Positions 1 through 23,935 of a stretch of DNA of 25,839 bases are shown here, piece after piece. The notes beneath the pieces are model-generated. The model was not told where the DNA came from and ran no database searches. It saw only the letters and a program-made list of their open reading frames with translations. Within the stretch, counting starts at the first letter, position 1. Each line of letters begins with the position of its first letter. This DNA is from a virus. Location of the stretch: positions 1 through 25,839 of the IMG/VR virus record IMGVR_UViG_3300044811_000041, one strand, 5' to 3'. The translations under genes and the position numbers were made by a program.

Positions 1-533
1 AAGCCGTCGGCTGAACGCAGACGCACCTGGTCGCCGGTCGTGACCACGGTGGAACCGACCGACGCCAGCGCCGACTCAAGCTCAGCGGTGACCTTGGACC
101 AGTCGTCGAGCGCGATCGCGCCCTGAAGTCGCACCAGCCGCTCGGTCACCTCACGCTTGACGGAGCCTTCGCGGACCAGCCGAGCGTGATAGGCGAAGTC
201 GCCCTTACCTAGGGACATCAGGCGGCGGATGTAGTCGGCCGTGTCGCCGCGGGCAGCGAACACTCGGTTGCCGATGCCGGCCTGCACGACCGCAAGGCCC
301 TTCGCAATGGCATCCAGCTTCGGGCCGGCGGCGAGGACCTGGTAGATGGCCCGGTGGGTGTAGTCCGCGAACGCCGACTCTGGAAGTGCCTCCAACATCT
401 CGGTGATGTCGCTGTCGGCGTTGAGCAGGAGCCCTAGGGTGACCTGCTCGGACTTGTCCGACAGTGCCCGACCGTCCAGGGTGCCGGCCTGGCTGTCGAG
501 ACCGACGACGGGGGAGGCGTAGCTCGGGTTCAC
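1..533 (-). CDS. DnaB N-terminal-like replication protein, partial (3' end beyond window)
   Basis: The frame is open from a GTG at 533 to the left edge, giving 177 codons with no stop. The start is chosen because GGGAGG lies 7 nt upstream and the GTG overlaps the stop of the preceding small ORF (GTGA). Residues about 27-125 resemble the N-terminal domain of DnaB-type replicative helicases: an E-Q-x-T-L-G-L-L-L opening, then an acidic helix, then a segment with H60-R-A-I-Y followed by predicted helices. In DnaB that domain packs the hexamer and contacts primase. The RecA-like ATPase half would lie beyond the window, so helicase activity is not shown. It could instead be a helicase loader or a DnaB-N-only protein. 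The gene follows the HTH regulator and a 48-residue ORF in a tight operon, as expected for a replication unit of a phage or integrative element. Confidence 0.6.
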   Translation of the reverse strand, partial: MNPSYASPVVGLDSQAGTLDGRALSDKSEQVTLGLLLNADSDITEMLEALPESAFADYTHRAIYQVLAAGPKLDAIAKGLAVVQAGIGNRVFAARGDTADYIRRLMSLGKGDFAYHARLVREGSVKREVTERLVRLQGAIALDDWSKVTAELESALASVGSTVVTTGDQVRLRSADG

Positions 534-676
534 CGGCCGACCTCCCGAAACTCATCGTGTTCGAGGGGCTGTGCGGCGGGCTCGCCGTGGCCTACCTTCA
601 AGTTGTCTCCATCGTGTGTACCCACGAGTGCGGGGCAGGCGAGCCGGGGTGTCTTCAGCACCTCGGCCGTCGTCAT
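530..676 (-). CDS. 48-residue small ORF coupled to both neighbours
   Basis: ATG at 676 overlaps the stop of the HTH gene (ATGA), and the TGA at 530-532 overlaps the GTG of the DnaB-like gene (GTGA). It reads 48 residues beginning MTTAEVLKTPRLACP and ending DEFREVGR. I recognise no domain. Two back-to-back 4-nt overlaps on the same strand are typical of translationally coupled operon genes, which is the main argument that it is real. It may simply be a coupling peptide that delivers ribosomes to the replication gene. Confidence 0.5.
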   Translation of the reverse strand: MTTAEVLKTPRLACPALVGTHDGDNLKVGHGEPAAQPLEHDEFREVGR

Positions 677-957
677 TTCTGGGTCTGGTTGCCGTCGAGC
701 TCGCGACGGAGCGCCTCGAGGTCGTCGAGGACGCGCCGGTAGATCAGCTTGTGTTCGCGGCTCGGCTCGATCTTTCCGCCCGGCTTTTCCCAGCTGTAGA
801 CGGAGAAGTGGCTGACGCCGCAGGCCTCTGCGACGTCTCGGATGCTGGCGCCAACCGACTCGCGGATGGCACGCCGCCGGGCCCTGTCTGGCAGGTGTGC
901 CCGGCGCAGGAAGTCAACAAGTGGCATGCACTCGGCTGAAGTTGGCGTGGTGGTCAT
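673..957 (-). CDS. HTH DNA-binding regulator (XRE-like)
   Basis: The product has 94 residues. Residues about 37-66 form a helix-turn-helix: SIRDVAEACGVSHFSVYSWE has the A-x-x-x-G-V-S-x-x-x-V-x-x-W-E pattern of XRE-family recognition helices. A basic stretch precedes it (RARRRAIRESVG), and the tail (residues 70-90) is a charged helix likely to dimerise. The ATG at 957 has AGGA 8 nt upstream; M11 is an alternative start. It diverges from the DUF2637 operon across a 70-bp gap with palindromes, so autoregulation and control of the transfer operon are the natural inference. It is the first gene of the unit that leads into the DnaB-like gene. The target sites are not proven. Confidence 0.75.
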   Translation of the reverse strand: MTTTPTSAECMPLVDFLRRAHLPDRARRRAIRESVGASIRDVAEACGVSHFSVYSWEKPGGKIEPSREHKLIYRRVLDDLEALRRELDGNQTQK

Positions 958-1027: not shown

Positions 1028-2215
1028 ATGCCCATGATCCCCCTACGGCCCGACAACGGCCCAGCCGTGACCGGAACGACCACGGTCCCGGTCGATGGCG
1101 GCTGGGGCGCAGGTCGGCACGGGGGTGGACGCATGAGTTCCCGCGAGAAGCCCGACACTCGGCCGTCCTGGACTCAGATCGCGCTGGGCGTCACCGCCGG
1201 CACGATCGCCAGCGTCGGCATCACCGCCGTCACCACCGCCGGGTTCGCACTGTCCTTCGACTCGATCCGCACCGTGGCCCGCGCGGCCTACATCAACGTC
1301 AACCTGGACTGGATGCTGCCCGTCGCGATCGACGGGGCGATGGCCGTCGCCTCCGTGACCGCGATCGTCATGCAGAAGCTCGGCCGCAAGCCCCTCTACC
1401 CGTGGGTGGTGGTGCTCGCCAACGTGCTCATCTCCGTCGGCTGCAACGCGCTGCACGCCTACCAGGGTGGTGGTGAGAGGCCGCTGCCCGTTGGCTGGGC
1501 GATGGCCGTGTCGGCCATTCCCGCGCTCAACCTGGCCCTGTCTCTGCACCTGGCGATCGAGTTGGTGATGGCCGTGGTGAAGCGCAGTGAGAGGCCGGCG
1601 AAGGGTGAGGCTGAGGGCGAAGGCTTCTCTCAGTTCGCACCCACTGTGATCCACGGCGGTACCCAGCCTGCGCGGCCCGCACCCACCCAGCAGGTTCGCA
1701 CCGACGGTCGCACCGACGGTCGCCCCCGGCTCGCACCGGCCATCTCAGCGCCTTCGCTGAACGGCTCGCAGCTGATCACCCAGCAGCCTGCTCAGTCGGC
1801 GAAGGCGGCACCCACCCAGCCTGAGTGGGGGGGTGGGAAGGCCGCTGCGACGGTCGGTGAGCAGTCGGGTGAGAACCGCACCGAGAGGGTCGCAGCGAAG
1901 CTTGAGAACACCCTTCGCAAGCCCGCGTACCCACTCGCCGACGACCCCAACGAGAGCGTCCGCAAACTCGCACGGGCCTACTCACGCAACCCTGCGAAGA
2001 CCAACGCTGACCTGGCGAAACTCGCCAAGGTGAGCGAGGGCACTGCGAACCGGTACATGCCCAAGGTGCGGCAGGCCGCAGTCGACGCCGAGAACGCCGA
2101 TGCGGACGAGGAGCGGGCCCTAAGCGCCCTCAATCTGGGTCCCTTCGCAGCACTCACCTCGTCCGCCCTGACGCCCGTCAACGGCTACTCGTACACCACC
2201 CCTGAGGAGAACTGA
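1028..2215 (+). CDS. DUF2637 membrane protein with C-terminal HTH (SpdB/transfer-associated)
   Basis: The product has 395 residues. Four membrane segments (about 51-75, 96-116, 124-145, 155-183) form the DUF2637 core, including the conserved-looking DWMLPVAIDGAMAVAS stretch. DUF2637 proteins are frequent on actinobacterial conjugative plasmids and integrative elements, next to transfer genes. Residues 185-300 are a low-complexity linker rich in Pro, Gln and Thr. Residues 305-352 look like a helix-turn-helix, with a T-N-A-D-L-A-K-L-A-K-V-S-E-G-T core. A membrane protein with a cytoplasmic DNA-binding tail could tether element DNA near the translocase. The start is uncertain: ATG 1028 has no clear ribosome site and could be leaderless, while ATG 1133 (M36) follows a G-rich stretch. 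It opens the transfer operon and is followed after 3 bp by the next gene. Confidence 0.8.
   Translation: MPMIPLRPDNGPAVTGTTTVPVDGGWGAGRHGGGRMSSREKPDTRPSWTQIALGVTAGTIASVGITAVTTAGFALSFDSIRTVARAAYINVNLDWMLPVAIDGAMAVASVTAIVMQKLGRKPLYPWVVVLANVLISVGCNALHAYQGGGERPLPVGWAMAVSAIPALNLALSLHLAIELVMAVVKRSERPAKGEAEGEGFSQFAPTVIHGGTQPARPAPTQQVRTDGRTDGRPRLAPAISAPSLNGSQLITQQPAQSAKAAPTQPEWGGGKAAATVGEQSGENRTERVAAKLENTLRKPAYPLADDPNESVRKLARAYSRNPAKTNADLAKLAKVSEGTANRYMPKVRQAAVDAENADADEERALSALNLGPFAALTSSALTPVNGYSYTTPEEN
1698..1721 (+). repeat. Tandem 12-bp repeat in the DUF2637 linker
   Basis: The unit GCACCGACGGTC occurs twice in direct tandem and encodes RTDGRTDG in the disordered linker. The number of copies may vary between relatives without shifting the frame, because the unit is 12 bp. 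Confidence 0.7.
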
Positions 2216-2218
2216 CCA

Positions 2219-2431
2219 ATGCGCGTCAACAGGAACGAGTTTCTGCTCTACACAGTCTGGGCCGGCCAGGCGACAGCGGTCTTCGCGATGGGTGCCGTGT
2301 TCGCGTCCCTGCTCCGCGAGCAGGTGCAGGACGTCAAGTTCTTCGGCCTCGCCGCCGGTGCCTGCGTGTTGCTGGCGGTCGGCGCCGAGGTGCTCCGCAT
2401 CGCCCTCAATCGGAAGAAGGCCACCCGATGA
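2219..2431 (+). CDS. Small two-helix membrane protein (Spd-like)
   Basis: The product has 70 residues. There are two hydrophobic segments, about 9-29 and 42-62, and a basic C-terminus (RKKATR) expected in the cytoplasm. GAGGAG lies just upstream of the ATG at 2219, and the stop overlaps the next start (ATGA, 2428-2431). Small hydrophobic proteins encoded in overlapping series beside the tra gene are the hallmark of Spd (spread) genes of Streptomyces plasmids, which help DNA move between compartments of the recipient mycelium. I cannot assign a specific spd name from sequence alone. Confidence 0.7.
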   Translation: MRVNRNEFLLYTVWAGQATAVFAMGAVFASLLREQVQDVKFFGLAAGACVLLAVGAEVLRIALNRKKATR

Positions 2432-2763
2432 CCACCCTCGCCACCCGCACCGCGTCCAGCCTGGCCGTCATCGAAGGCCGGTTCGTGGAGACCGCCCCGC
2501 CCGCACCCTGCCCGCCGATGCCGCCGCCGGAGTTCGGTTCGGCCATCGCCGCAGGTCAGCGCGCCACCGTGCGGAACCCGCACCGCGTGCCAACCCGGAT
2601 CGCCGCGGTACTGCTGCTCGGCACCGCGGCCGGTTCCTTGCTGCACGTGCACGACACCGGAGGCGGGAAGGTCGCGTACGCGGTCGCCCTGTTCCTGGCG
2701 ACCGCGGTGTTCCTGACCTGCCTGATCCGGTTCAACGCCCGCGCCGAAGCGGGCGACCGATAG
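2428..2763 (+). CDS. Small membrane protein with Pro-rich N-terminus (Spd-like)
   Basis: The product has 111 residues and its ATG overlaps the stop of the previous gene. The N-terminus is proline-rich (residues about 23-34, APPAPCPPMPPP). Two membrane segments follow: about 57-74 and 82-100. I recognise no family domain. Position and overlap put it in the same translationally coupled series as its neighbours, so a role in spreading or in the transfer pore is inferred. A 76-bp gap follows; it contains a short inverted repeat ATGGCA/TGCCAT (2772-2784) and no other visible gene. Confidence 0.65.
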   Translation: MTTLATRTASSLAVIEGRFVETAPPAPCPPMPPPEFGSAIAAGQRATVRNPHRVPTRIAAVLLLGTAAGSLLHVHDTGGGKVAYAVALFLATAVFLTCLIRFNARAEAGDR

Positions 2764-2771
2764 CAGCCCCG

Positions 2772-2784
2772 ATGGCACTGCCAT
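2772..2784. repeat. Short perfect inverted repeat in an intra-operon gap
   Basis: ATGGCA and TGCCAT are separated by a single C in the 76-bp gap between two transfer-operon genes. It resembles the GGCATAC half of the repeat before the DUF2637 gene. It may be an operator or chance. Confidence 0.25.
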
Positions 2785-2839
2785 ACCGACTGCCAGCAAC
2801 CCGCTGACCAGCGCAAACACTGAAAGGACATTCGACCTG

Positions 2840-3061
2840 ATGCCGACCCGCCTGCCGATCAGACGAGCCGACCGGCGTGTACGCGAGTTCACCAGCCGGA
2901 TCGACACGGCCAAGACCGAAAGGTCTGTGGTGTTCGCGGCCGTGGGCTGGCTGATGGCCGAGTACTACAAGATCTCGCACCTGCGCCGACCGCACTGGAT
3001 CAACCGGTGGAAGGCGCTGGCCCAGGAGATGAACGAGGAGACCCGTGATGACTCTCAGTGA
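2840..3061 (+). CDS. Small basic protein, unknown function
   Basis: The product has 73 residues. GAAAGGA sits upstream of the ATG at 2840. The N-terminal third is rich in arginine (PTRLPIRRADRRVREF). The middle holds a short hydrophobic patch (VVFAAVGWLMAEYY, about 30-44), followed by HLRRPHWINRWKAL. It is probably a small soluble or membrane-associated protein rather than an integral one. It overlaps the next gene by 17 bp in another frame, which supports operon membership. I recognise no family. Confidence 0.6.
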   Translation: MPTRLPIRRADRRVREFTSRIDTAKTERSVVFAAVGWLMAEYYKISHLRRPHWINRWKALAQEMNEETRDDSQ

Positions 3062-3464
3062 TATGGCAGTGGTGGATGGCAGTCCCGGTCTGGGTGCTGC
3101 ACAGCCCGTCGGCGTTAACGCGCGCGCGAGAGTCAAGCAGAGTGTAACCGCTCGTGATCGTCAGCGCACGTCTGGCAGGTCCCGGACCGCCCGAATCCTC
3201 CGGGTCGTCTACCTCGACGCGGTCGACTCGTGGCCGCTGCGGGAACGTTCCCCGTCGGCCAAGACGGTGTGGCGCACCGACTACAGCGCCCACCTGGACA
3301 CCCCGTGGGCGCCCTACCAGTACTGGACGAAGGCGTGGCGGTTCGTCGCTGTGTTCTTCGCGCTACTCCTCGACGCGCCCAAGTGGCTGCTGATCCACCC
3401 GGTCCGCGGGCCCCTCACCATCACCCTCTTCGCCGCCGGCTACCTGGCCGCCGCGCACCTGTAG
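3045..3464 (+). CDS. Membrane protein of the transfer operon (Spd-like)
   Basis: The product has 138-139 residues. Start is GTG 3045 or ATG 3048; GAGGAG 7 nt before the ATG favours 3048. The first half is basic and polar (residues 25-50). The second half has a hydrophobic stretch about 96-112 (FVAVFFALLLDAPKWLL) and a C-terminal one about 120-138 ending at the stop. The layout suggests a cytoplasmic N-terminus and a membrane hairpin. It contains the palindrome at 3241-3252. Homology is not recognised; the role is inferred from operon position. Confidence 0.65.
   Translation: MMTLSDMAVVDGSPGLGAAQPVGVNARARVKQSVTARDRQRTSGRSRTARILRVVYLDAVDSWPLRERSPSAKTVWRTDYSAHLDTPWAPYQYWTKAWRFVAVFFALLLDAPKWLLIHPVRGPLTITLFAAGYLAAAHL
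3241..3252. promoter_or_regulatory. Perfect palindrome GGGAACGTTCCC, second copy of the operator-like motif
   Basis: The core GGAACGTTCC (3242-3251) is identical to the palindrome at 994-1003 in the divergent promoter region. It lies inside a coding gene. It may be an auxiliary repressor site or a coincidence. Confidence 0.35.
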
Positions 3465-3478
3465 AAAGGAGCACCACC

Positions 3479-3877
3479 ATGTTCGGAATCGGAGCGCGGT
3501 TCGGCACCCTCGCCATCGCCGCAGCCATCCTGTTCATCTCCCACCGCCTGCACAAGTCGAGCAAGCGCGGCGCCAAGAACATCGCCGTCGTCGGCGCGTT
3601 CCTCGCCGGCCTGGCCTTCCTGGTCACCTTCGTCGGCAGCTGGATGCGCGGCGCAAGCTGGCTCGGCGGGGTGTCCGTCGCCGGGCTGATCGTCTGCGCA
3701 GGCATCGTCCTGATCGACTGGCTGATCGACAAGAAGCCCGACAAGCCCGCCTTCTGGGCGGCGTTCGCGCTGGCCCTGTTCATCGTCGTCGGCGCCTCGA
3801 ACCTGCCCGCCGCGGGCAACCAGATCGGCCAGGGCGGTAAGCAGGTCGGCGAGCAGTTGTCGAAGGTGGGCAAGTAG
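3479..3877 (+). CDS. Small polytopic membrane protein (Spd-like)
   Basis: The product has 132 residues, starting at the ATG at 3479, which follows AAGGAG closely and lies 14 bp after the previous stop. Membrane segments are seen at about 5-21, 34-53, 62-82 and 91-108. The tail is soluble and Gly/Gln-rich (AAGNQIGQGGKQVGEQ). The frame is open much further upstream, but only this start has a ribosome site and does not overlap the previous gene. The next gene begins 2 bp after its stop. Role in transfer is inferred from position. Confidence 0.7.
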   Translation: MFGIGARFGTLAIAAAILFISHRLHKSSKRGAKNIAVVGAFLAGLAFLVTFVGSWMRGASWLGGVSVAGLIVCAGIVLIDWLIDKKPDKPAFWAAFALALFIVVGASNLPAAGNQIGQGGKQVGEQLSKVGK

Positions 3878-3879
3878 CC

Positions 3880-4878
3880 GTGATCGAGTTGCTGATCGGC
3901 TGCCTGGTCGTCTCGGGCATGCTGATGACCGTCCCCCGGGCGGTCGCCGACGTCATCGAGACGGTCAAGGCGGCCAACGCCGGGCAGTGGGACGTCGTCA
4001 ACCGGGACCGGGACCGCCGGGCCGCCCGGGGTGAACGGTGGGGCCGCGCCTGGAATGGGGTCCGGCAGGGCCGCAACCGGCAGGCCGGCGGCACCGGCGA
4101 GTACAAGCCCGGTCTCGGCGCCTACCTGGACGACGTCTACCACGGCTGGTGCCAGGACCTGATCGACAAGCGTCAGGCGAAACGCGACCAGCGGAACGCG
4201 GCCGTCGACGACCCGAACGGCCAGTCGTGGGACGACCGGCTCGACGAGGCGGCGACGACGCTGCGGGATCGAAGTGAGGCCCGGCGGGCGACCCAGGACC
4301 CGCAGCCACCGCCGGAGCCGATCGACGAGAGGACCTCGCTGGGCGATGTGATGGGCGGGCAACGGCCCACGCAGGTCCCTGCCGCATCGGTCGACCCGCA
4401 ACAGTCACCGACTGACCGCTCGGCCCCACTGGCTTACTTCGAGCCGCCAGACCTCTACCCGACCCCCCTGGAACCCACCGAAGGAGAGCCCATGCCCGAG
4501 AACACCCCCACCGGCGGCACTGCGACCGGCGACGCCCACGACCTCGAGTCCGCCAGCCAGCAGGCTGACCTGCTCGACGACGACCTGACCCGCATCGACA
4601 CCGCCCTGGACGTCATCGACGAGGCCATCGCCTCGGCCGGCGGCGCGACGGAACTACTCGAGGCGTTCCTGCACTCGAAGAACGTCGACGACACCACCGT
4701 CGGCGGGATGAGTGTCGCCCGGGACATGCTGTCGCCCACCCACATCAAGGCCCTGATCGACGCGATCGCCGCGGCGAAGCAGGGCGTGCGGAACACCAAG
4801 GAAGCGATCGACGTGATGAACGACCAGGCCACCGAGGCGCTGAAGGGCGCCGACGGTTCGATCGTCAACGGCCGCTGA
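3880..4878 (+). CDS. Membrane-anchored protein with acidic helical C-terminus, unknown
   Basis: The product has 332 residues from GTG 3880. An N-terminal hydrophobic segment (about 2-23) is followed by a basic region (45-70: RDRDRRAARGERWGR and similar). Residues 140-205 are a proline-rich linker. The C-terminal 128 residues are acidic and helical (DLLDDDLTRIDTALDVIDEAI). A strong internal ribosome site with an in-frame ATG at 4492 (M205) suggests that the C-terminal part is also made alone. It lies directly before the FtsK-like translocase, where conjugative elements often encode accessory partners. I do not recognise a family. Confidence 0.7.
   Translation: MIELLIGCLVVSGMLMTVPRAVADVIETVKAANAGQWDVVNRDRDRRAARGERWGRAWNGVRQGRNRQAGGTGEYKPGLGAYLDDVYHGWCQDLIDKRQAKRDQRNAAVDDPNGQSWDDRLDEAATTLRDRSEARRATQDPQPPPEPIDERTSLGDVMGGQRPTQVPAASVDPQQSPTDRSAPLAYFEPPDLYPTPLEPTEGEPMPENTPTGGTATGDAHDLESASQQADLLDDDLTRIDTALDVIDEAIASAGGATELLEAFLHSKNVDDTTVGGMSVARDMLSPTHIKALIDAIAAAKQGVRNTKEAIDVMNDQATEALKGADGSIVNGR
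4481..4494 (+). promoter_or_regulatory. Internal ribosome binding site and start inside the 332-residue gene
   Basis: AAGGAG (4481-4486) is 5 nt before an in-frame ATG (4492). Initiation there would give a separate soluble 128-residue product, 4492-4878, starting MPENTPTGG. The site falls exactly at the junction between the Pro-rich linker and the helical C-terminal region. Confidence 0.5.
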
Positions 4879-4900
4879 CCCGTCCGGACTCCACCCGTGG

Positions 4901-4923
4901 CCGCCAAGCCTCGTGTTTGGCGG
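4901..4923. other. Hairpin in the leader of the translocase gene
   Basis: CCGCCAA (4901-4907) and TTGGCGG (4917-4923) form a 7-bp stem with a 9-nt loop in the 90-bp gap before the FtsK-like gene. No T run follows, so it is more likely an attenuator, an RNA processing element or a DNA site than a terminator. It is the only sizeable intergenic gap next to the translocase. Confidence 0.4.
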
Positions 4924-4968
4924 TTGCGGTACCAGCCCGGCCCAGCCCACTTGATATTGGAGATGTAG

Positions 4969-7371
4969 ATGTTCACGACCGAGCAGCGTCCGGCCCCCGT
5001 GCCGCCACGGCCGGGCACCGACGGTGCCTCCGGTCAGGGTAAGGCGCGGATGCCGTCGCGCAACGACCTCGGCGAGCCGGTCCTGCCGCCGGGGGCGACC
5101 ACCTGGTCCTGGCACTACGCCGGCCCCGGTGGGAAGAGCGTCAAGGCGCGGGTCATGGTGCCGGTGAACGACAACGGCGAACGCACCCACATCGACTGGG
5201 AGTGCCGGGCCTGCCCCGACAGCCAGCAGTGGTTCTCGGCGAAGGCGAAGGTCGACCCGAGGTGCAACGTCTGCCGTGGCAAGATGCGGCATGCCCGGTC
5301 GGGCCGCACACGCCGACCGTCGGGCGTGCCGTGGCGCAAACTGTTCGACTCGCAGAAGGAACGCCTCCGGGTCGTAGCCGTCACCGAAGTGGTCGGCGCG
5401 ATAGGTGTCACCGCCGACGTCGCGGACCTGCCCTGGTGGGGTGAGGCCGCCCAGTTCGCCGCAGTGCCCGCCTGTGTGGCCGGGTCATGGTGGCTGACGA
5501 AGGTGTACTTCACCCACCGGGCGGTGAAGGCCGGCAAGGTGGACCCGCACGACGAGGTCGCCGGCAAACGCGCCCGTAAGCTCATCGACCGTCGGGCCCG
5601 GCTGGCCGGCTACATCGCCGCCGTGTGCGGGGTGTGGGTGGAGACCGCCGACGCCATCAACCTGGACCCGACCACCGCCGACGGTGGGCTGGCCATCGCC
5701 GCCCTACTCGGTATCGGCGTGGTCGGATCCCGGCCGTACCGGGCGTGGGTCGACGACCGTAAGGAACGCGCCCGGCTGGCCGCCCTGGACCGGGCGACGG
5801 ACGGGCCGGTCGACACCACCCCGCAGCCCACTCAGGCCGACCTGCTCGCCGCCTACGTGTTGGAGCGCTGGGCGAAGGTGTCGGCGAAGGGTCGGGTGCT
5901 GCACGGCACCCGGCTGCAGGCGATCCGGCCGTCGGTGGGCGGCTGGTCGGCGACGATCGTCGCCGACGACGACTCCGACCTGGACCCGGAGAAGTTCGAC
6001 ATGCCGGAGCCGGTCCGGAAGATCGCCCGCGCCTACAACGTGGGCACCTCCATGGTGTCGATCATCGCGGATCCGCTGGACGCCAACCGGGCCATGATCC
6101 TCGTGCAGCGCACCAGTCCGCTGTCGGCGGGGCGGGTGTGGAACGGCGAGGGCATCGACCCGACCACCGGCACCGCCGAGACGGTCACGCTCGAGGACGG
6201 CAGCCGCGGCCGGCACCAGTTCTGGCGTCCCGGCTGGGGTGCGGTCATGGAACTCATCGCGGGCTGCACGGGCGCCGGCAAGAGTGAGTACTTGAACCTG
6301 CTCCTCGCCCTGGAGCGGCAGTCGAAACTGGCCGTGTCCTGGGTCGGCGACCCGCAGCTCGGGCAGTCCCTCGGCGACGTCCGCGACGGCGTGGACTGGT
6401 TCGCGCCGACCGTCGAAGAAATCCTGATCATGCTGCGGTGCGCGGTCATGGTCATGTTCGCCCGGAACTTCCTGGTCACCAAGATGCGGGTCGTCGAGAC
6501 CAGGCCCAACGGCAAGGTCGTCGAGCGGCGCGTCAAGTACGTCGAGGTGGCCCCGGACTTCCCGCTACTGTCGATCACCATCGACGAGGCGCACATCCCG
6601 ATGAACGACCCCGAACACGGCAAGGAGATCGTCAAGATCCTGGCCCTGCTGGCGAAGTCCGGCCGCAAGGCCAACGTGAAGATCCGGCTACTGGCGCAGT
6701 CGCCGCTGCTGTCCGAACTCAAGGACTCGGTGCTGCGTTCGCAACTCGCGTCGGGCCTGGTCACGGTGTTCCGCACCGCCGACCGTCTCACCGGGCCCGC
6801 GGCGTGGCCGGGCGGGAAGATGCCCGGCGACCCGTCGGCGCTGCCCCGCGAGTGGGAGGACGGATCCACCACGGCCGGCCTCGGCTACATGTCGAGCGTC
6901 AAGCGGATGCGGATGCGCACCGACTACGCCGACGACCTCTATGACCTGATGACCGAAGGGCACACCCTGGGCCTCGAGGCGGCCGTCCTGAACACGGCCG
7001 GTGTCGCCTACGCGGACCGTTGGAAGCGTCTCGACGCGTTCGACAACATGGACCCGGCCGAGTTGCTCGGCGCCGGCATTCCCGCGGGCCTGTTCGGTGG
7101 CGGCGACACCGACATGGACGCGTCGAAGGCCATGGGCGGACGTGAGGCGGTGCTGCGGTTCTTCGCCGAGCGCTGGCTGGACGGCGACCGCGACCCAGTC
7201 CCCTTCGGTGACGTCGCCACGGCGGTGCGGGATGTGGTGAAGACCCGGGCGTGCACGAACGCCTGCAACAAGCTGGTCACCGATCAGGTACTGGACACCG
7301 ACGCCGGGAAGTACTGGCTGACCAAGTCCGGCGCCGAGCTGATCGGCGTCCTCGACGAGGTGCCGGCGTGA
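4969..7371 (+). CDS. FtsK/SpoIIIE-type DNA translocase (TraB-like)
   Basis: The product has 800 residues; ATG 4969 follows GGAG. A four-cysteine zinc ribbon comes first (C79/C82 and C99/C102). Four membrane segments follow, about 133-150, 158-178, 213-230 and 238-254. The motor domain has Walker A GCTGAGKS (432-439) and Walker B LLSITIDEAH with D539-E540. A C-terminal winged-helix region (about 725-795) ends the protein. FtsK/SpoIIIE motors pump double-stranded DNA through membranes; Streptomyces TraB proteins of similar size (about 620-775 residues) are the only protein strictly needed for plasmid transfer, and their winged helix reads clt repeats. The membrane region, motor and Spd-like neighbours support TraB. 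The N-terminal zinc ribbon is not something I know from TraB. A phage packaging or segregation role is less likely. Confidence 0.85.
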   Translation: MFTTEQRPAPVPPRPGTDGASGQGKARMPSRNDLGEPVLPPGATTWSWHYAGPGGKSVKARVMVPVNDNGERTHIDWECRACPDSQQWFSAKAKVDPRCNVCRGKMRHARSGRTRRPSGVPWRKLFDSQKERLRVVAVTEVVGAIGVTADVADLPWWGEAAQFAAVPACVAGSWWLTKVYFTHRAVKAGKVDPHDEVAGKRARKLIDRRARLAGYIAAVCGVWVETADAINLDPTTADGGLAIAALLGIGVVGSRPYRAWVDDRKERARLAALDRATDGPVDTTPQPTQADLLAAYVLERWAKVSAKGRVLHGTRLQAIRPSVGGWSATIVADDDSDLDPEKFDMPEPVRKIARAYNVGTSMVSIIADPLDANRAMILVQRTSPLSAGRVWNGEGIDPTTGTAETVTLEDGSRGRHQFWRPGWGAVMELIAGCTGAGKSEYLNLLLALERQSKLAVSWVGDPQLGQSLGDVRDGVDWFAPTVEEILIMLRCAVMVMFARNFLVTKMRVVETRPNGKVVERRVKYVEVAPDFPLLSITIDEAHIPMNDPEHGKEIVKILALLAKSGRKANVKIRLLAQSPLLSELKDSVLRSQLASGLVTVFRTADRLTGPAAWPGGKMPGDPSALPREWEDGSTTAGLGYMSSVKRMRMRTDYADDLYDLMTEGHTLGLEAAVLNTAGVAYADRWKRLDAFDNMDPAELLGAGIPAGLFGGGDTDMDASKAMGGREAVLRFFAERWLDGDRDPVPFGDVATAVRDVVKTRACTNACNKLVTDQVLDTDAGKYWLTKSGAELIGVLDEVPA

Positions 7372-7373
7372 GC

Positions 7374-7556
7374 TCAGCGACGCCCGTCGATGATGAGATC
7401 GTGGAGGACTTTGAAGCCTTCCTCGATGACGCGGGCGATCAGGTCGTATCCCTGGCGGTGCACGTCGAGGATCTGCTTGTGCCGGTCCTGCTCGGCCCGC
7501 TCGCGTTTGTCGGCGTCCCGGAGCCATCGGGCCAGGTCATCCTCGTAGCCGCTCAT
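7374..7556 (-). CDS. 60-residue charged helical protein (strand uncertain)
   Basis: The minus-strand frame encodes 60 residues with strong helical, charged character (DLARWLRDADKRERAEQDRH) and high G/C at third codon positions (about 52 of 60 by hand). Alternatively the plus strand is open from a GTG at 7368 to a TGA at 7593-7595. That ORF overlaps both neighbours by GTGA, as expected in the operon, but it is less well biased at third positions (about 57 of 75). The minus reading looks more like a real protein; the plus reading fits the operon better. Function is unknown either way. Confidence 0.4.
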   Translation of the reverse strand: MSGYEDDLARWLRDADKRERAEQDRHKQILDVHRQGYDLIARVIEEGFKVLHDLIIDGRR

Positions 7557-7591
7557 GTCCTCATGGTGACCGATGCGATCAGGTTTGGAAA

Positions 7592-8269
7592 GTGACCGCG
7601 ACCCTGCCGCTGCCCACCGACCTGCGGGACTGCCGCCTCTACCGGTTCTGGGTGGAGCATCCGGTGACGGGGGAGGAAGTCCTCGGCTACATCGGGGAGA
7701 CCGTCCGCCGGCCGTTCGACCGGATGATGGAACACGTCGATGTGCAGCCGTGGATCGACACGGTGACCCGCTGGGAGCGGGATCCGCGCGTGTTCGCCGG
7801 CAAGGGTGCTGTCCTCGAAGCCGAGGCGCAGGCGATCCGGGCCGAGAAGCCGCTGTACAACGTGCGGGGTAACGAGCGGAACAAGGACCGGATCATTCCG
7901 CCGGATGCGATCCGGCAGCGTCGGGCCCGGGACGCCGCCAGAAACAAGCCGCGCTGGGTGCATCCGGATGACCGGACGTCGGAGGGTGTGCGGCAATCGA
8001 CGACGATCGTGCCCGAACGTCGCCCTTCAACCACCCGAAAGTGGAGCCCGGTCCAGGTCAAGGCCGCCCTATGGTCGAGTGCGTGGCTGCTGCTGACGAT
8101 CCTCGGCTGGGGAGAGTGTGCCCGCCACGGAAGCTGGTCGACCCGGACGGACGCGATCAGCGGCGGCGTCACGGCGGCACTGGTCATGGTGTGGGGGCTG
8201 TGGCGCAAGCCGGACTCGGTGAAGCTGTGGAAGCGGCGGCTGCGCAAGATCTGGCGTTGGTTTAGGTGA
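7592..8269 (+). CDS. GIY-YIG nuclease-like protein with C-terminal membrane segments
   Basis: The product has 225 residues from GTG 7592. The N-terminal 90 residues match a GIY-YIG fold: RLYRFWV (15-21) in place of GIY, GYIGET (32-37) as the YIG strand, arginines at 39-40, H48, the metal-binding glutamate in AVLEAEAQAI (E76), and PLYN (87-90). A basic linker follows. Two hydrophobic segments lie at about 157-176 and 188-204, then a strongly basic tail (KLWKRRLRKIWRWFR). Such nucleases nick or cut DNA. Membrane anchoring beside a DNA translocase suggests DNA processing during transfer, but this is an inference. Activity could be lost, since the first motif is degenerate. Confidence 0.65.
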   Translation: MTATLPLPTDLRDCRLYRFWVEHPVTGEEVLGYIGETVRRPFDRMMEHVDVQPWIDTVTRWERDPRVFAGKGAVLEAEAQAIRAEKPLYNVRGNERNKDRIIPPDAIRQRRARDAARNKPRWVHPDDRTSEGVRQSTTIVPERRPSTTRKWSPVQVKAALWSSAWLLLTILGWGECARHGSWSTRTDAISGGVTAALVMVWGLWRKPDSVKLWKRRLRKIWRWFR

Positions 8270-8472
8270 GCGCCATGACCCCGGGCAACGGCCGATGGTT
8301 TCAGGTGGGGGAACGCGACCGGGGCGGGGAACTGTCGGGTGGTGTCCGCGACGGCCGGGTGTGGACGAACGCCTTCAACGGTTCCGGTGTCACGGTGGAC
8401 GTGTCGGCGGATGAGGCGGAGCAGTTCGGGTTGTGGCTGATCCAGTGCGCGCGGGCGGCCCGGATTCAGTGA
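8266..8472 (+). CDS. 68-residue protein, last gene of the plus operon
   Basis: GTG 8266 overlaps the previous stop (GTGA); ATG 8275 is an alternative start. The 68 residues include a short beta-rich region (GRVWTNAFNGSGVTVDVSAD) and a C-terminal helix (EAEQFGLWLIQCARAARIQ). It resembles the small single-domain proteins often found in actinobacterial mobile elements, but I cannot name the family. It is followed by the hairpin cluster that closes the operon. Confidence 0.6.
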   Translation: MSAMTPGNGRWFQVGERDRGGELSGGVRDGRVWTNAFNGSGVTVDVSADEAEQFGLWLIQCARAARIQ

Positions 8473-8680: not shown

Positions 8681-8746
8681 CGGACAGAAAACAGAAAGAG
8701 GCGCCCCGCTCGCCGCCGACCATGAAGGTCAGGGCGAGCGGGGCGC
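8681..8746 (-). terminator. Strong rho-independent terminator of the phage late operon
   Basis: GCGCCCCGCTCGCC (8701-8714) and GGCGAGCGGGGCGC (8733-8746) are a perfect 14-bp inverted repeat, and the inner GACC/GGTC can extend the stem. On the minus strand the stem is followed by CTCTTTCTGTTTTCTG, a good T-rich tail. It lies 69 bp after the stop of the holin-like gene, so it ends leftward late transcription. Confidence 0.85.
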
Positions 8747-8815: not shown

Positions 8816-9169
8816 TCAGGAGATCGCCGCCGTGTGCTTCGCCGACCGTGGCGCGGTCACCTGGGTTCGGACGAAGGCCGCCATCGCGGTGCCGACGAAC
8901 GACATGATCAGCGCCTGCTGTTCGGCGTCCAGGTGGAAGCCGAACCCGACCGCCAGCGCCAGCAGCGCCTGCACGAAGCCGAGGATCGCAGCTACCTGGC
9001 CGTCCCGGCGCACCCACACGGCGAGGGCGAGCCCGACGATCGCGGCGGCGACGGCGTTGAGGACGGCCTGCTGGTCGCCGCTGAGGTTCAGCCAGAACGC
9101 GCACGCCAGCTTCAGGGCGGTCGCGAAAAGTGAAAGCAGCAGGGCCGGATCGCGTCCGAACAGCTTCAT
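8816..9169 (-). CDS. Holin-like membrane protein
   Basis: The product has 117 residues; ATG 9169 follows an AAGGAG-type site. Hydrophobic segments lie at about 9-27, 37-54, 60-80 and 88-103, separated by short charged loops (WVRRDGQ, HLDAEQQ). Small multi-helix proteins near the endolysin are the usual holins of actinophages. Holins form the membrane lesions that release endolysin and set lysis time. It is the last gene before the late terminator, and is split from the rest of the lysis region by two plus-strand genes. Several other small membrane proteins nearby could be the holin instead. Confidence 0.65.
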   Translation of the reverse strand: MKLFGRDPALLLSLFATALKLACAFWLNLSGDQQAVLNAVAAAIVGLALAVWVRRDGQVAAILGFVQALLALAVGFGFHLDAEQQALIMSFVGTAMAAFVRTQVTAPRSAKHTAAIS

Positions 9170-11307: not shown

Positions 11308-12060
11308 TCACGCGGTCCGTGGGGCCGTCCATGCCGCCGCGAACGTCTGCGGGCCGAGTAGCCGGTCGACGCCGAGGTGCTTCTCGCGCTGGAACGTCGC
11401 GGCGACGTCGGCGGACTTGTGCCCGTACCGGCCGTCGACGGCGATCGCCCAGCCGCGGGCCTTCATCCGAGCCTGCCAGCCCCGTACGGTCGCCGAGTAC
11501 TTCGGCCGGTCGGCTTCCCGGAACGCCGGGGTGCCCTTCGGCCAGCCCGGTGCCTTGACCGCAACCGTGGCCTTGCCGCCGGGCGCGCCGGCCGCCGTCG
11601 GCTTGTCGCGCCACCTGCGGATCTTGTCGGCCATCCGGGCGACCGCGGCAGGCTGGCCGATGACCTCGAAATGCATTCCGTCGACGGGCGCCGACTTGTA
11701 GTCCTCGCCCCACCGCACGACGCCCTCGAGAAACCCGAGGATCTTCCGCACGGCCGTTTTCTGCTTGGCCGTGAAGGTGTTCCGCTTGCCGCGCGGGTGC
11801 TTTTTCCACCGGGTGTCGACTGCGGTGCCCGATCCGTGGTTACTGATCGTCCGGGCGCCGATGATCGACCGCGGGTTGTAGCCGCCGGTGTCGGCCTGCG
11901 TGAGTGGTTCGACGGTGTTGTCGTACTGCTCGAGCAGGTAGAGCAGGATCACCGAGACGTCGCCCTTACGCAACGTGACGCGGACCTTGGTAGTGGGGAC
12001 GGTGTATGACGCCATGAGGGAGCTGTTGTTCGCGCTGTAACCGTTCTGCGAGTACAGCAT
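11308..12060 (-). CDS. Endolysin: M15 (VanY-like) peptidase with peptidoglycan-binding domain
   Basis: The product has 250 residues; ATG 12060 overlaps the stop of the previous gene. The N-terminal domain carries the M15 zinc-peptidase signature: S-N-H75-G-S-G-T-A-V-D82 and D127-G-M-H130-F-E132, with H75, D82 and H130 as zinc ligands and E132 nearby as catalytic base. Such enzymes cleave peptide cross-links in peptidoglycan. A Gly/Ala/Pro linker (155-175) joins a C-terminal peptidoglycan-binding repeat (about 190-245), which has VDGRYG followed by a helix and L-G-P-Q-T-F. It is the lytic enzyme of the phage. An internal start at M16 is possible. Confidence 0.85.
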   Translation of the reverse strand: MLYSQNGYSANNSSLMASYTVPTTKVRVTLRKGDVSVILLYLLEQYDNTVEPLTQADTGGYNPRSIIGARTISNHGSGTAVDTRWKKHPRGKRNTFTAKQKTAVRKILGFLEGVVRWGEDYKSAPVDGMHFEVIGQPAAVARMADKIRRWRDKPTAAGAPGGKATVAVKAPGWPKGTPAFREADRPKYSATVRGWQARMKARGWAIAVDGRYGHKSADVAATFQREKHLGVDRLLGPQTFAAAWTAPRTA

Positions 12061-16916: not shown

Positions 16917-19900
16917 CTAGGACGTGCTGAGCGCCGCCACCGAGTTGCCCCGCCACTTGGCCTTGATCAGCAGTCTCATCGCGTCGAGCACAGGATCACC
17001 GGTCGCGCCCCGTGCCCAGTCGAGTTCCACCCCGGCCGACGATGTCAGCGACGCCTGCGCAGCCGAGGTGGACAGGTCCACACCGAACGTGGAATCGGCG
17101 AGGGCCGGCAATGCTGCAGCGGCCATCTTCTCCGCCGCCGCAGCCACCTCATCGGCGCCGCCGAGGATGCCCAACGCCAGCCCTTGCGGAACCCGCGAAC
17201 CCAGCTCGGCCGCCAGCTTCGACGGGGAGCTGATGTGCAGGAAGTTCTGCACCGGGCTGATGATGTTGTTGCGGACGAAGTTGACGACCTTGTTGTACAG
17301 CCAGCCACCCAGCGAGGCGATCCCGTTCCACAGGCCGACGACCGTGTTGTAGCCGGTGTTGTACAGCCAACTCGCGGCGTTCGACAGGGCGTTGGTGATC
17401 TGCGTCCTCAGGCCCGACGCGGTCGACGAGATCGACCCGTACAGGTTGCGGATGCCGTTGCCGAGACCGGTCACCGCATTCCGGCCGGTGTTCACCAGCC
17501 ACGTCCCGGCCGCGCTGAGCGCGTTCGTGATCGTGGTTTTGACGCCGCCGGCCCACGTCTTCAGCGAGCCGAACATCGACGTGATGCCGTTGCCGAGACC
17601 GGTGACCGCGTTGTGCCCGGCCGTGACCAGCCAGGTCGCGCCGTCACCGACCGCGTTGATGACAGTGGTGCCGATCTGCCCTGCCGTGGTGGTCAGCCCG
17701 GCGAGGAAGTCGGTGATGCCCCGCATCAGGCCCTCGATGAGGTTCTTGCCGACCTCCATCATCACCGTCGACGGGGATTTGATCCCGAAGACTTCCTTGA
17801 ACTTGTCGACGATCTTCTGGGCGAGGACACCCAGGGACAGGAAGTTCGCCTCGACCGCGACGCCGATCCCGGCGATGATGCCGTTGATCAGGGCGGTGCC
17901 GATCTTCGTCCCAGCCGACTTGCTCTTGCCTTCGTTGTCGTCGCCGAACAGTTTCTTCTGGAGCCTGTCGATTTTGTCGATCCAGCCCTGGATCTTCTTG
18001 AAGTCCTCGTCGACCTTGTTGATCGTTTCCTTGATCTTGTCGAAGTAGCCGGTGATCTCGGCCTTGTTCTTGGGATCGCTCAGGAACTTGTGCAGGTCTT
18101 CCAGCTTGTCGTTGAACGAGTCCAGCGGGGTCTTGTCGCCCTTGGCCAGCGTCGACCCGGTGAGGATCGAGAACAGGTCCCCGACGATTTTGAAGACCAA
18201 CTTGCCGGTGGTGAACAGGTCGTGCATCGAGTTCGTGGCCGTGGTGAAGAAGTCCTTCAACCCGCCCGTCTTCTCGCCCTGCAGCACCCATTTGGAGAAC
18301 TCGGTGACCACATTGGCGATCTCCGTGCCCAGCTGCGCCAGGAACGGACCGGCGGCCCGCGACAGCGCCCCGAAGGCCGGCACCAGCGAGGAGGTGATCG
18401 CGTTGCCGATCTGGCTGAGGCCCTGCCGGGCGCCCTCCGCGCCGGCCTGGATGTCGGAGATGAACTTCGGTGTGGTGATGCCGGTGCCGAGGCTGCGGAA
18501 GAAGCCGTTGAACGTGTCCGCGTACGAGCCGAGCGTGACCTTCAGCGCCGGGATCCACGCCTTGCCCAGGTTCGCGACCGTCTTGTCCAGGCCCTCGAAC
18601 AGGCGTTGCTGCACGTCGAGCCGCAGATCCTCGAACGCGGGCTTGAGGGCCTTGACCGCGTCGACGAACTTCTGCGCGGCCGGAGCCAGCGGGATGATCT
18701 TCGCGGCCAGGGCAGCAGCGGAGGCGGCACTTTTCGCCTGGGCGGAGGCGAGGGAGTCCTGCGCTGAGGTCAGCCCGTCGACGCTGGACTTCAGGCCGTC
18801 GTTGGCCGAAGCGAGGGCGTCCTGCGCGGACAGCACCCCGTTCTGCGCGTCGATGACCGACTGCTGGGCGTCCTTCACGCCTTGCTGGGCCTGCGCCTGC
18901 GCGTCGAGGGCGGCCACGACCTTGTCGGAGCCCTCCACACCCAACTTCGCCGACTCGGCCTGCTGGACACCGAGATCCTTCGCGGTGTCCTTCGCGTTCT
19001 CCAACGTGAGCTGCGCTTGGCGGTAGGCCAGGTCGGCCTTCTCGATGTCGGGGATGTTGCCGGTCAGCTTGACCGCGTTCAGCTCCCGCAGAGCGTCGGT
19101 GACGGCGAGTGCCGCCCCTTCCTCGTCCAGTTGGGCGCCACGCAGAGCCCGGCCGAGGTCTTCGATGTCGGCGGTCGCCTCGACCCGCGCTTTGCTGACG
19201 GCCAGCTGGGCAGCCAGGGCGCGCTTCTCCGAGTCGATCTCGTTTTGCCGAGCGGAATCCAGCCCGCGCTCCGACGACTCCAGGCCCCTCTGCGCCGCCG
19301 CTAGGCCCCTAGTGGCCGCGGTGATACCCCGGCGGGCAGAGTCCACCCCCCGTTCGGCAGCGGCGATCTGGCGGGCGCGCTGGGCCGGGTCCTGACCGGA
19401 GCCGCCCCCACCGCCGCCCGTCTTCGGCTTGAACGCCTCCGTGATGCCCTTGAAACCCAGCGCCAGCGTGCCGAAGATCGCACCGGCACCGACCAGGGCA
19501 GCCGGGATCGCCGCCGCCGCACCAGCGACAGCCGACATGGCCGGAACCACGAGAGCAGCCGCACCGGCCAGCGCTGCCATCACGATCCCGGCCGCGGCGA
19601 TCAGGCCGATGACCAGACCGATCGGGCCCGTCGCCGCCTGGAACGCGCCCGCCAGGTTGCCGCCCAGCAGCGCCGACTCCCCGGCCACCTTCTGCAGCGA
19701 CGCGAACACGCTGCCCAACCCGGACAGCAGCCCGCCCAGCAGGGGAACGAAGTTGGGGATGGCGCCCGCGACCTTGTCGAATCCGCCGGCGATACCGCCG
19801 AGGACGTTGCCGGCCGAACTGCCCTTGGTCTTGACGTCCACGTCGACCTTGACGGTGGTCTTGGCGTGACGCGCGGCGAGTTCCGTCGCCGCCTTGAGCT

Positions 19901-20159
19901 TCCGGTCGAACCCGGACGTGTCCGGGTCCACGGGGACCCGCGGCGCCCGGATGCTCCGCAGTTTCGCGTTGACCGCCGCAGAGTCCACATCCAGGTCGAC
20001 CGGAACGCGGACCTTGGTGTTGCCGATCGACCGTTCGATGGCGCCCTGCAGGTCGAGATCCTTGAACGCCTTCTCGGTCTCCGTCTTCAGTGACTTCGCC
20101 AGAGCCCGCGCCGAGGCCACGATTTCGACCGCCACGGAGCCAACAATCGGCGCAGTCAC
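16917..20159 (-). CDS. Tape measure protein
   Basis: The product has 1080 residues from GTG 20159, the longest gene here. Residues about 140-240 are hydrophobic and Gly/Ala-rich, as in other tape measures. Residues about 265-480 are a long Ala/Gln/Asp coiled coil with repeated SAQ/DA motifs. A 44-residue repeat occurs three times near the C-terminus. The end (PSKLAAELGSRVPQGLALGI) matches the common actinophage tape-measure tail. It sets tail length and is ejected with DNA. At about 0.15 nm per residue it predicts a tail near 160 nm. Directly upstream lie the tail assembly chaperones, its known partners. The ribosome site is G-rich and partly paired. Confidence 0.92.
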   Translation of the reverse strand: MTAPIVGSVAVEIVASARALAKSLKTETEKAFKDLDLQGAIERSIGNTKVRVPVDLDVDSAAVNAKLRSIRAPRVPVDPDTSGFDRKLKAATELAARHAKTTVKVDVDVKTKGSSAGNVLGGIAGGFDKVAGAIPNFVPLLGGLLSGLGSVFASLQKVAGESALLGGNLAGAFQAATGPIGLVIGLIAAAGIVMAALAGAAALVVPAMSAVAGAAAAIPAALVGAGAIFGTLALGFKGITEAFKPKTGGGGGGSGQDPAQRARQIAAAERGVDSARRGITAATRGLAAAQRGLESSERGLDSARQNEIDSEKRALAAQLAVSKARVEATADIEDLGRALRGAQLDEEGAALAVTDALRELNAVKLTGNIPDIEKADLAYRQAQLTLENAKDTAKDLGVQQAESAKLGVEGSDKVVAALDAQAQAQQGVKDAQQSVIDAQNGVLSAQDALASANDGLKSSVDGLTSAQDSLASAQAKSAASAAALAAKIIPLAPAAQKFVDAVKALKPAFEDLRLDVQQRLFEGLDKTVANLGKAWIPALKVTLGSYADTFNGFFRSLGTGITTPKFISDIQAGAEGARQGLSQIGNAITSSLVPAFGALSRAAGPFLAQLGTEIANVVTEFSKWVLQGEKTGGLKDFFTTATNSMHDLFTTGKLVFKIVGDLFSILTGSTLAKGDKTPLDSFNDKLEDLHKFLSDPKNKAEITGYFDKIKETINKVDEDFKKIQGWIDKIDRLQKKLFGDDNEGKSKSAGTKIGTALINGIIAGIGVAVEANFLSLGVLAQKIVDKFKEVFGIKSPSTVMMEVGKNLIEGLMRGITDFLAGLTTTAGQIGTTVINAVGDGATWLVTAGHNAVTGLGNGITSMFGSLKTWAGGVKTTITNALSAAGTWLVNTGRNAVTGLGNGIRNLYGSISSTASGLRTQITNALSNAASWLYNTGYNTVVGLWNGIASLGGWLYNKVVNFVRNNIISPVQNFLHISSPSKLAAELGSRVPQGLALGILGGADEVAAAAEKMAAAALPALADSTFGVDLSTSAAQASLTSSAGVELDWARGATGDPVLDAMRLLIKAKWRGNSVAALSTS
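17274..17669 (-). repeat. Three tandem 44-residue (132-bp) repeats in the tape measure gene
   Basis: Units begin at 17669, 17537 and 17405 (minus strand), each 132 bp. The shared protein pattern is T-T/Q-x-I-N-A followed by W-L-x-x-x-G-x-N-x-V-x-G-L-x-N-G-I. The third unit is less conserved at its end. Such spaced repeats are typical of tape measures and point to recent tandem duplication. Confidence 0.75.
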
Positions 20160-21575: not shown

Positions 21576-22136
21576 TTAGAGCGTCAATGTGCTGTCGTAT
21601 AGATATCGATAGGCGACATTTCCGCTCGCGTCGACATAGCAATTTACGGTGAATTCGTACAAGGTCAAGTCGTTGGCCCACTTCACGTCCCCGCGCTCGA
21701 CGACCTGCCCCAGTGGCACCACGATGCGCTGCAGCTTGCCGCTGTCGGAGATGCCGTGGAATACCCAGGTGCGGACGTCCTTGACCGGCGGCTTCTCCGC
21801 GATCGTGACGCCCGTGCCGGTCTGTGTCAGCGTCGAGCCGGGATACATGAGGGCCAATGTCTGGCCGTTCGTTTCCTGGCAGGCAAATTTAAACTGCTTC
21901 TGATATTTGCCCAGCAGGGTGGCGACGAGAACGTTGCCCTGCCAGGCGTAGAAGTCGGTCGTGTCCTGCGACGTTGAATCGGAGAGGCCGTCGTCGGTGA
22001 TGCTGCCGACGTCCTTATACGCCGCAATCAACGAGGTAGTGGCGTCAGTCGGGAGGGCGGTTCCCGTGACTCCGTACCCAGTGACAGCGACCAATCCGTT
22101 CTGGTACGCCCTGATCTTTGTGGTATCGACCGCCAT
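21576..22136 (-). CDS. Major tail protein (tail tube subunit)
   Basis: The product has 186 residues; ATG 22136 follows AAGGAG. The sequence has the tail-tube pattern: an opening strand (MAVDTTKIRAYQNGLVAV), then DVGSITDDGLSDSTSQDT and FYAWQGNVLVATLLGKYQ, a short beta-rich core (FKFACQETNGQTLALMY), and a closing strand (YEFTVNCYVDASGNVAYRYL). Many copies form the tube. Flanking hairpins may raise its expression. It follows a small structural protein, and lies just before the chaperone genes, the standard siphovirus order. Confidence 0.9.
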   Translation of the reverse strand: MAVDTTKIRAYQNGLVAVTGYGVTGTALPTDATTSLIAAYKDVGSITDDGLSDSTSQDTTDFYAWQGNVLVATLLGKYQKQFKFACQETNGQTLALMYPGSTLTQTGTGVTIAEKPPVKDVRTWVFHGISDSGKLQRIVVPLGQVVERGDVKWANDLTLYEFTVNCYVDASGNVAYRYLYDSTLTL

Positions 22137-23539: not shown

Positions 23540-23935
23540 TTACGGCACAAGCCCGTGCAGGTAGATCCGGTACGAGGCCCCGCGCCGATACACCTTCGGG
23601 TCGGGTAGCCACACCGGCGCCATCACCGTCTCAACGGCCTTCACGAACACGCCGTTGGCGAAGGTGTGCAGCGGCAGGTTGAGCCGCAGTTCGCTCCGGT
23701 TGTCCTCGGCGGCCTTGCGCGCGTGGTCGGCGTTGGCGGCGTACCAGTCGACGTCGAGCAGGACCACGTCCAGGGTGAGCCTGGTGTCGCCTTCGCCGCG
23801 TCCGCGCTGGAAGTGGCCGATCGGGGCGGTGAAGCGCCAATCGGAGGGCAACAGTGGGTCGGCCCATGTCTTCAGATTGAGGCGGCCGTGCGTCCACTCG
23901 CTGACCATCAGCTCCGGGTCCGCGTACCCCGTCAC
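23540..23935 (-). CDS. Neck / tail terminator-like protein
   Basis: The product has 131 residues from GTG 23935, which overlaps the stop of the previous gene (GTGA). It is a compact alpha/beta protein with strands (DTRLTLDVVLLDVDWYAANA) and a C-terminal strand (SYRIYLHGL). Position after the gp10-like protein, and before the tail tube gene, fits the tail terminator or tail completion protein that caps the tube and joins it to the head. The family is not certain. Confidence 0.65.
   Translation of the reverse strand: MTGYADPELMVSEWTHGRLNLKTWADPLLPSDWRFTAPIGHFQRGRGEGDTRLTLDVVLLDVDWYAANADHARKAAEDNRSELRLNLPLHTFANGVFVKAVETVMAPVWLPDPKVYRRGASYRIYLHGLVP

Follow-up and report, generated by a model that had tools for sequence, protein, structure and literature searches.

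Movement as a phage and movement by conjugation are usually regarded as alternatives, and in work on phage-plasmids, conjugation functions were found mainly in elements that had ceased being phages (PMC10879196). A linear virus record of the IMG/VR collection, IMGVR_UViG_3300044811_000041 (25,839 bases, ends not known; this whole stretch is called the window here), raises the question of whether one element can hold both sets of functions. At positions 1028-8472, on the plus strand, it carries an operon resembling the transfer (tra) operons of Streptomyces plasmids, which encodes a DUF2637 protein, five small proteins (most of them membrane proteins), an anchored protein of 332 aa, a translocase of 800 aa, an endonuclease-like protein and a final small product, and which runs convergently to a phage lysis/tail operon. 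In the plasmid systems, TraB binds DNA by its C-terminal winged helix, forms hexameric rings and moves double-stranded DNA (dsDNA) to a recipient, after which Spd proteins spread the transferred DNA through the mycelium (PMC3583192, PMC4170104, PMC9513070). A preliminary description of the window, whose open reading frames lie at the positions it gave, had proposed that the two halves, if they form one replicon, can spread both as a phage and by mycelial DNA transfer.

Our analysis identifies the window as a 25.8-kb piece of a large siphovirus, probably a temperate one that infects mycelial actinobacteria and has a plasmid-type operon for dsDNA transfer as a permanent part of its genome. The same convergent tra/tail arrangement was found in seven other genomes (G001, Paractinoplanes maris, G201, G155, G146, G204 and G241) and, since it recurs in this way, it reflects more than chance. 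In G001, an IMG/VR record of 104,922 bp, the translocase is 69% identical to that of the window, and the convergent tail operon includes a tape measure protein of ~50% identity. In P. maris, the translocase (70%) is encoded on a 648-kb contig, in a prophage whose first gene, at 257,162, encodes a tyrosine integrase. A tail-protein profile searched against 201 Micromonosporaceae genomes gave four matches above 1,100 bits, the next scoring 480. A TraB-like gene lay 5-9 kb from the tail protein gene, in opposed direction, in all four top matches (G002, G155, G201, G146). Of the remaining 44 genomes, whose tail matches were weaker, none had such a neighbour, although more distantly related translocases near these matches may have escaped the translocase profile. 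G204, an additional Paractinoplanes genome, and G241, from IMG/VR, show the same pairing; with the window and G001, it is carried by eight of eight members of the lineage.

The ends of the element were located in G204, in which a 15-bp repeat, AGATGTCGTACATCT, occurs at 679,584 (attL) and 794,395 (attR; span C1:679584-794409). The same sequence is single-copy in the relative G212 (C9:206341), where it lies inside an uninterrupted 834-aa gene. Because the repeat is found twice in G204 and once in the intact gene of G212, we conclude that G204 contains a 114,811-bp prophage inserted in that host gene. Between its att sites lie an integrase gene (87% to the P. maris integrase), terminase, head, tail and tape measure genes, and the whole tra operon; in the relatives, the integrase gene is at the far left end. 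P. maris has the same left att site as G204. Its attR was searched for and not found, and its prophage looks partly deleted, because the right flank lacks ~5 kb of host DNA that is present in G212. Two relatives are integrated. With regard to circularity, no end overlap was found in the 106-kb contig of another element, G079, and G001 looks trimmed, as its sequence opens with an ATG and closes with a stop codon. The preliminary description had named an integrase or att site near 8.5-8.8 kb as the finding that would split the region into two elements; none was found between the tra and tail modules, and the att repeats of the relatives enclose both. The enclosing att sites of G204, together with the recurrence of the arrangement, strongly support the proposal that both modules belong to one replicon for the lineage, to which the window is assigned by comparison with its relatives. 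Likewise, structural and transfer genes, the combination that defines a plasmid-phage, are present on one element in G204 and P. maris and are adjacent in the window. We also observed that the two halves of the att core AGATGTCGTACATCT form an inverted repeat around three central bases; a tyrosine integrase that uses this site might serve in the construction of vectors for Paractinoplanes.

The translocase and its exchange within the lineage

The translocase gene (4969..7371, plus strand) encodes an 800-aa TraB-like protein of the FtsK/SpoIIIE type, as the preliminary description had recognised. Its Walker A motif, GCTGAGKS, occupies residues 432-439, and the acidic Walker B pair, D539-E540, lies within LLSITIDE and is invariant in seven of seven aligned homologues. 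A Pfam search of the 800-aa protein gave no match, and the FtsK_SpoIIIE scores of its relatives were below the Pfam cut-off. However, a motor profile built from 14 homologues (residues 286-800) matched the solved structures of EccC (8e-10) and FtsK (2iuu, 2e-8). An AlphaFold2 (AF2) model of the same residues, made from 14 sequences, had a predicted local distance difference test score (pLDDT) of 70 and a predicted TM-score (pTM) of 0.60. Against dsDNA-bound FtsK (6t8o/6t8g), this model scored Z 20.4 over 332 residues (root-mean-square deviation 3.7); TcpA, a conjugation protein, gave Z 18.2, and HerA motors of defence systems only 12.6. At its C-terminus, the model has three helices and short strands, with confidence falling from ~74 to 33, and several plasmid homologues are annotated as winged helix-turn-helix (HTH) proteins. 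Profile comparison by hhalign related the translocase to pIJ101 Tra (E 1.9e-10, P 96.9), a remote homologue whose role in transfer is proven, as well as to PhiNon1 TraB (E 5e-29, 33% over 361 columns) and pZL12.71c (E 7e-9). As indicated by profiles, the structure model and its relatives, the translocase is an FtsK-type motor.

The four membrane segments that had been described for this protein are plausible: at a lenient cut, hydropathy analysis gave three N-terminal hydrophobic peaks (133-151, 212-230 and 235-253), while the strongest peak (485-503) falls inside the motor. A search of TraB against 50,697 phage records found no significant relative, the best match being Thermobifida phage P1312 (E 0.05). 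Within the traB gene, positions 5946-5967 form a 22-bp perfect palindrome, GTCGGCGACGATCGTCGCCGAC; it was judged coincidental, as the corresponding codons of four relatives do not preserve it.

The TraB proteins of the eight members fall into three types: A (window, G001, P. maris), B (G204, G201, G155) and C (G146, G241), with 66-81% identity within and 23-31% between types. All three types occupy the same slot and are discordant with the tail genes. P. maris and G204 share 75% identity in the tape measure protein and 66% in the tail protein, as compared to 29% in TraB, whereas the window and P. maris share 70% in TraB and 46% in the tape measure protein. Type A TraB was also present in two other elements, namely G079, which has different phage genes, and G140, a decayed chromosomal element. 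In the latter (C1:6488001-6508000), the type A tra operon lies amid transposase genes and the tail genes of this lineage are gone. Ten more IMG/VR records (53-173 kb) contain the translocase of the module, and nine of these ten also matched the tape measure protein. The motor and its ATPase motifs are intact in all members, and crude dN/dS values were 0.3-0.4 for TraB, as compared to 0.5-0.7 for the tail protein. Because the motor has been exchanged among three types and yet is present in every member, its retention implies selection for having a translocase.

Proposed transfer between hyphae and the alternatives

How might such an operon serve a phage? Integrated as one unit that holds both modules, via a tyrosine integrase as in the relatives, the element would excise as circular phage DNA before transfer. 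The TraB-like protein would recognise this circle through its C-terminal winged-helix domain, assemble as a hexameric FtsK-type ring at the hyphal membrane or septum and pump the dsDNA into an adjacent hypha or compartment. Together with it, the DUF2637 protein and the small membrane proteins would act as Spd-like factors that spread the DNA through the mycelium. An element of this kind could leave its host in two ways, in particles released by lysis or by passing the prophage from cell to cell with no lysis. More tentatively, the entire, widespread lineage might consist of conjugative prophages that spread as naked dsDNA within and between mycelia, by a swappable TraB pump of their own in addition to virions; the TraB type would determine the specificity of transfer or exclusion, and this would be what drives its repeated replacement.

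The main rival is that the translocase serves internal partition during septation, moving excised or replicating prophage DNA through the septa of a single mycelium or into spores, so that it reaches each compartment, with no transfer from donor to recipient. The hosts of the relatives are Micromonosporaceae, which grow as mycelium, and in its fold the motor resembles FtsK, a septal DNA mover, as closely as it does conjugation proteins. In pIJ101, moreover, SpdA2/sps affect segregational stability, not transfer (PMC4170104). However, an integrated prophage is inherited without help, and we consider partition as the only role to be rather unlikely. It is also conceivable, although improbable, that the operon acts at the cell envelope, excluding superinfecting phages or aiding incoming phage DNA across the membrane. 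Operons of small membrane proteins near the immunity genes of temperate phages often serve exclusion, and DUF2637 relatives occur in cluster A mycobacteriophages, in genomes with no TraB match. In contrast, the motor is conserved, has plasmid counterparts and is nearest in fold to FtsK and TcpA, not to HerA, and a PADLOC-DB search gave no match, on which ground an anti-phage defence function was rejected.

Two further explanations were considered. The operon might be passive cargo, a plasmid-derived transfer operon kept by chance and no longer functional, as could be imagined from the decayed G140, which has kept its tra genes amid transposases. The intact motifs of all members, the lower dN/dS of TraB and the exchange of three motor types in one slot, with no member lacking a motor, make this very improbable. 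Alternatively, a conjugative element and a separate prophage might simply lie side by side or have been misassembled, and the window is indeed a fragment with no known ends. Here, the same junction in seven other genomes or records and the lack of a detected integrase between the modules leave hardly any room for chance, and for the lineage, separate neighbouring elements are refuted by att sites that enclose both modules in G204 and by the recurrence of the pairing.

Several observations weigh against mycelial transfer, or against the assignment of the window to this lineage. The window lacks head genes and element ends, and its membership is deduced from its relatives. Against the NCBI equivalog model NF041214 (plasmid_TraB), the translocase scored 25.2 bits (E 5.3e-6) with a cut-off of 800; as this is far under the cut-off, we refer to the protein as TraB-like and not as a member of that family. 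A full-length AF2 model from three sequences reached a pLDDT of only 35, and the motor model is itself of moderate quality (pLDDT 70), with the winged-helix region the weakest. Among the accessory proteins, the 332-aa protein compared to the plasmid family of ~410-aa proteins gave a non-significant profile match (P 40), and the phage and plasmid DUF2637 profiles gave P 0.3 against each other; Spd proteins are highly diverse and many are unique (PMC4170104). There was no convincing clt/TRS cluster, since repeats in excess of shuffled sequence sit in a low-complexity part of the DUF2637 coding region and differ in each genome. A clt locus is not described for pSAM2 either (PMC9513070). On balance, we nevertheless favour mycelial DNA transfer as the explanation that probably best accounts for the module.

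Should the pump be functional, a virus that infects mycelial bacteria could spread without killing and phage-resistant hosts could still receive it, so that host-range estimates based on plaques would miss part of its spread. Sequenced carriers such as P. maris make the lineage directly testable.

Gene content of the two operons

The first gene of the tra operon (1028..2215, plus strand, as are all of its genes unless stated otherwise) encodes a DUF2637 membrane protein with a C-terminal winged-HTH-like stretch (PF10935, E 7.9e-9; PHROG 733), which is ~30% identical to proteins of cluster A mycobacteriophages. As had been described, a chain of small membrane proteins with overlapping genes follows it. 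The first of these (2219..2431; hydropathy), which may be Spd-like by position, overlaps the next gene (2428..2763) by four bases (2428-2431); the product of the latter is also a membrane protein by hydropathy and is 39% identical over 67 residues to its P. maris homologue. A small basic soluble protein, conserved in position, is encoded at 2840..3061 (PHROG 1838, E 9e-4; 48% to P. maris). The next small membrane protein (3267..3464), whose true start may be upstream at ~3045, is 56-58% identical to its homologues in P. maris and G001. A 132-aa protein with four hydrophobic segments by hydropathy (3479..3877; 67-70% to G201 and G155) and the 332-aa protein (3880..4878) may also be Spd-like by position. 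The latter has an N-terminal membrane anchor, a disordered middle and a conserved C-terminal helical domain, which is 59-62% identical in G001 and P. maris.

Directly after traB, a conserved small gene on the opposite strand (7374..7556, minus) encodes a 60-aa protein, 34% identical to that of G001, and P. maris and G140 each have a gene in the corresponding position. A GIY-YIG-type endonuclease-like protein with a hydrophobic C-terminus (7592..8269; PHROG 16880/3312, E 4e-9/1e-8) is encoded by a gene that adjoins traB throughout the lineage. The last small gene of the operon (8275..8472) has a small counterpart at the same place in relatives. Upstream and divergent from the operon, a gene at 673..957 (minus strand) encodes a small HTH-like protein (34-42% identity to same-place homologues in G001, P. 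maris and G201), likely a regulator of the divergent promoters. The left end of the record truncates a gene for a DnaB-like replicative helicase, of which the N-terminal domain remains (3..533, minus strand; PF00772, E 5.7e-5; PHROG 19).

The convergence of the tra genes on a phage lysis/tail operon, as originally described, was borne out by the genes identified in the late region. Read from the right end on the minus strand, these encode the head-tail connectors, the tail tube protein, chaperones, the tape measure protein, a tail protein of 954 aa and an endolysin. Tail terminator and head-tail connector genes lie at 23540..24342 (PHROG 123, 1929), and the major tail (tube) protein is encoded at 21576..22136 (PHROG 117, E 2.5e-31; PF25681). 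The tail tape measure protein gene occupies 16917..20159 (PHROG 4197, E 1.3e-67), and that of the 954-aa tail protein, the marker of the phage lineage, 13773..16637 (PHROG 5313, E 4.7e-103; 45-46% to G001 and P. maris). The endolysin (11308..12060) combines an M15 peptidase with a peptidoglycan (PG)-binding region (PHROG 1512, E 4.5e-34; PF13539). At the end of the late operon, 8816..9169 (minus strand) encodes a 117-aa membrane protein (hydropathy; 69% to G001) that may be holin-like. Between the convergent operons lies a perfect 14-bp inverted repeat with an 18-nt loop (8701..8746), possibly a bidirectional transcription stop; a search for a T-tract terminator between the tra and late operons found none.

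Further genes were noted in the window and its relatives. An HNH endonuclease gene (22662-23390) lies between the tail and connector genes of the window, and it may be a homing-type insertion, because gene prediction gave none at the equivalent position in G001 or P. maris. Adjoining the connector genes and cut by the record end, 24852-25838 encodes a protein with a K1-lyase C-terminal domain (PF24146, E 2.6e-25), possibly a capsule-degrading spike. G001 (78851-80245) and P. maris (328862-330281) share, at the same place, a conserved pair, a DUF6879-like protein and an XRE/DUF5753-like regulator, named by eye, which might constitute an immunity switch. Cytosine-methyltransferase-like early proteins of ~570-640 aa, also named by eye, are encoded in G001 (805-2520) and G079 (C438:100786-102720) and are up to 76% identical across these phages; it is possible that they modify DNA against restriction.

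Counterparts among plasmids and plasmid-phages

The best database relatives of the translocase were on 79 actinobacterial plasmids, mostly of Streptomyces. Linear plasmids of Streptomyces and Kitasatospora (for example NZ_CP109321, NZ_CP119148 and NZ_CP108210) show almost the same order as the window, with a DUF2637 protein followed by a basic protein of ~90 aa, a membrane protein, a protein of ~410 aa and a TraB-like protein of ~700 aa; a GntR gene lies upstream, and their motors are 34-40% identical. They differ in having an extra 128-131-aa protein before traB and no phage genes in the stretches examined. Thus, motor and gene layout support the assignment of the transfer module to the Streptomyces plasmid type. 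The original designation of the module as TraB/Spd-type holds in these two respects, whereas profile comparison of its Spd part with plasmid proteins gave no significant homology, and position and membrane topology suggest that the accessory proteins may be Spd-like.

An FtsK-type motor and adjoining small spd-type genes are also features of pIJ101, pSVH1 and the actinobacterial integrative and conjugative elements (AICEs) such as pSAM2. AICEs carry an integrase, as do the relatives of the window, but are smaller (11.9-36.2 kb in a Streptomyces survey; PMC9513070) than the elements of this lineage, which are phages of ~80-115 kb. Membership in the AICE class, defined by integrase, replication initiator and TraB with no particle genes, is ruled out by the terminase, portal, tail and lysis genes in the same element.

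Closer in kind are two plasmid-phages. The Streptomyces replicon pZL12, or phage ZL12 (GQ919031, 90,435 bp), similarly combines phage genes and an FtsK-like transfer gene, pZL12.71c, on one replicon; it is both phage and plasmid, and its transfer needs a tra gene and two neighbours, as given in a paper that cites the original work (PMC3583192). It differs from the lineage in its motor family and layout, in carrying ParAB and in being an autonomous plasmid. A GntR regulator accompanies its transfer gene, and the two genes neighbouring pZL12.71c, the only ones compared, gave no match to DUF2637. PhiNon1 of Nonomuraea gerenzanensis (NZ_LT559120.1, 59,257 bp) has a complete phage gene set and, like the window, a tra operon of DUF2637, small proteins, a ~400-aa protein and TraB that runs against the lysis/tail operon. 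It exists as a circle and as an integrated prophage, as stated in PMC5431353, in passages that do not discuss its tra genes. In contrast to the lineage, it has no detected match to the tail marker, is about half the size and uses a tRNA-Val att site.

The dual lifestyle, which had been called unusual, is therefore not new as such, since pZL12 and PhiNon1 precede it. In the papers and collections searched, no large, integrating lineage of siphoviruses was found described whose TraB operon is fixed in place yet swappable. What is new is the regularity: this lineage keeps the phage and transfer gene sets together at a fixed place, with a motor that has been exchanged among three distant types and never lost.

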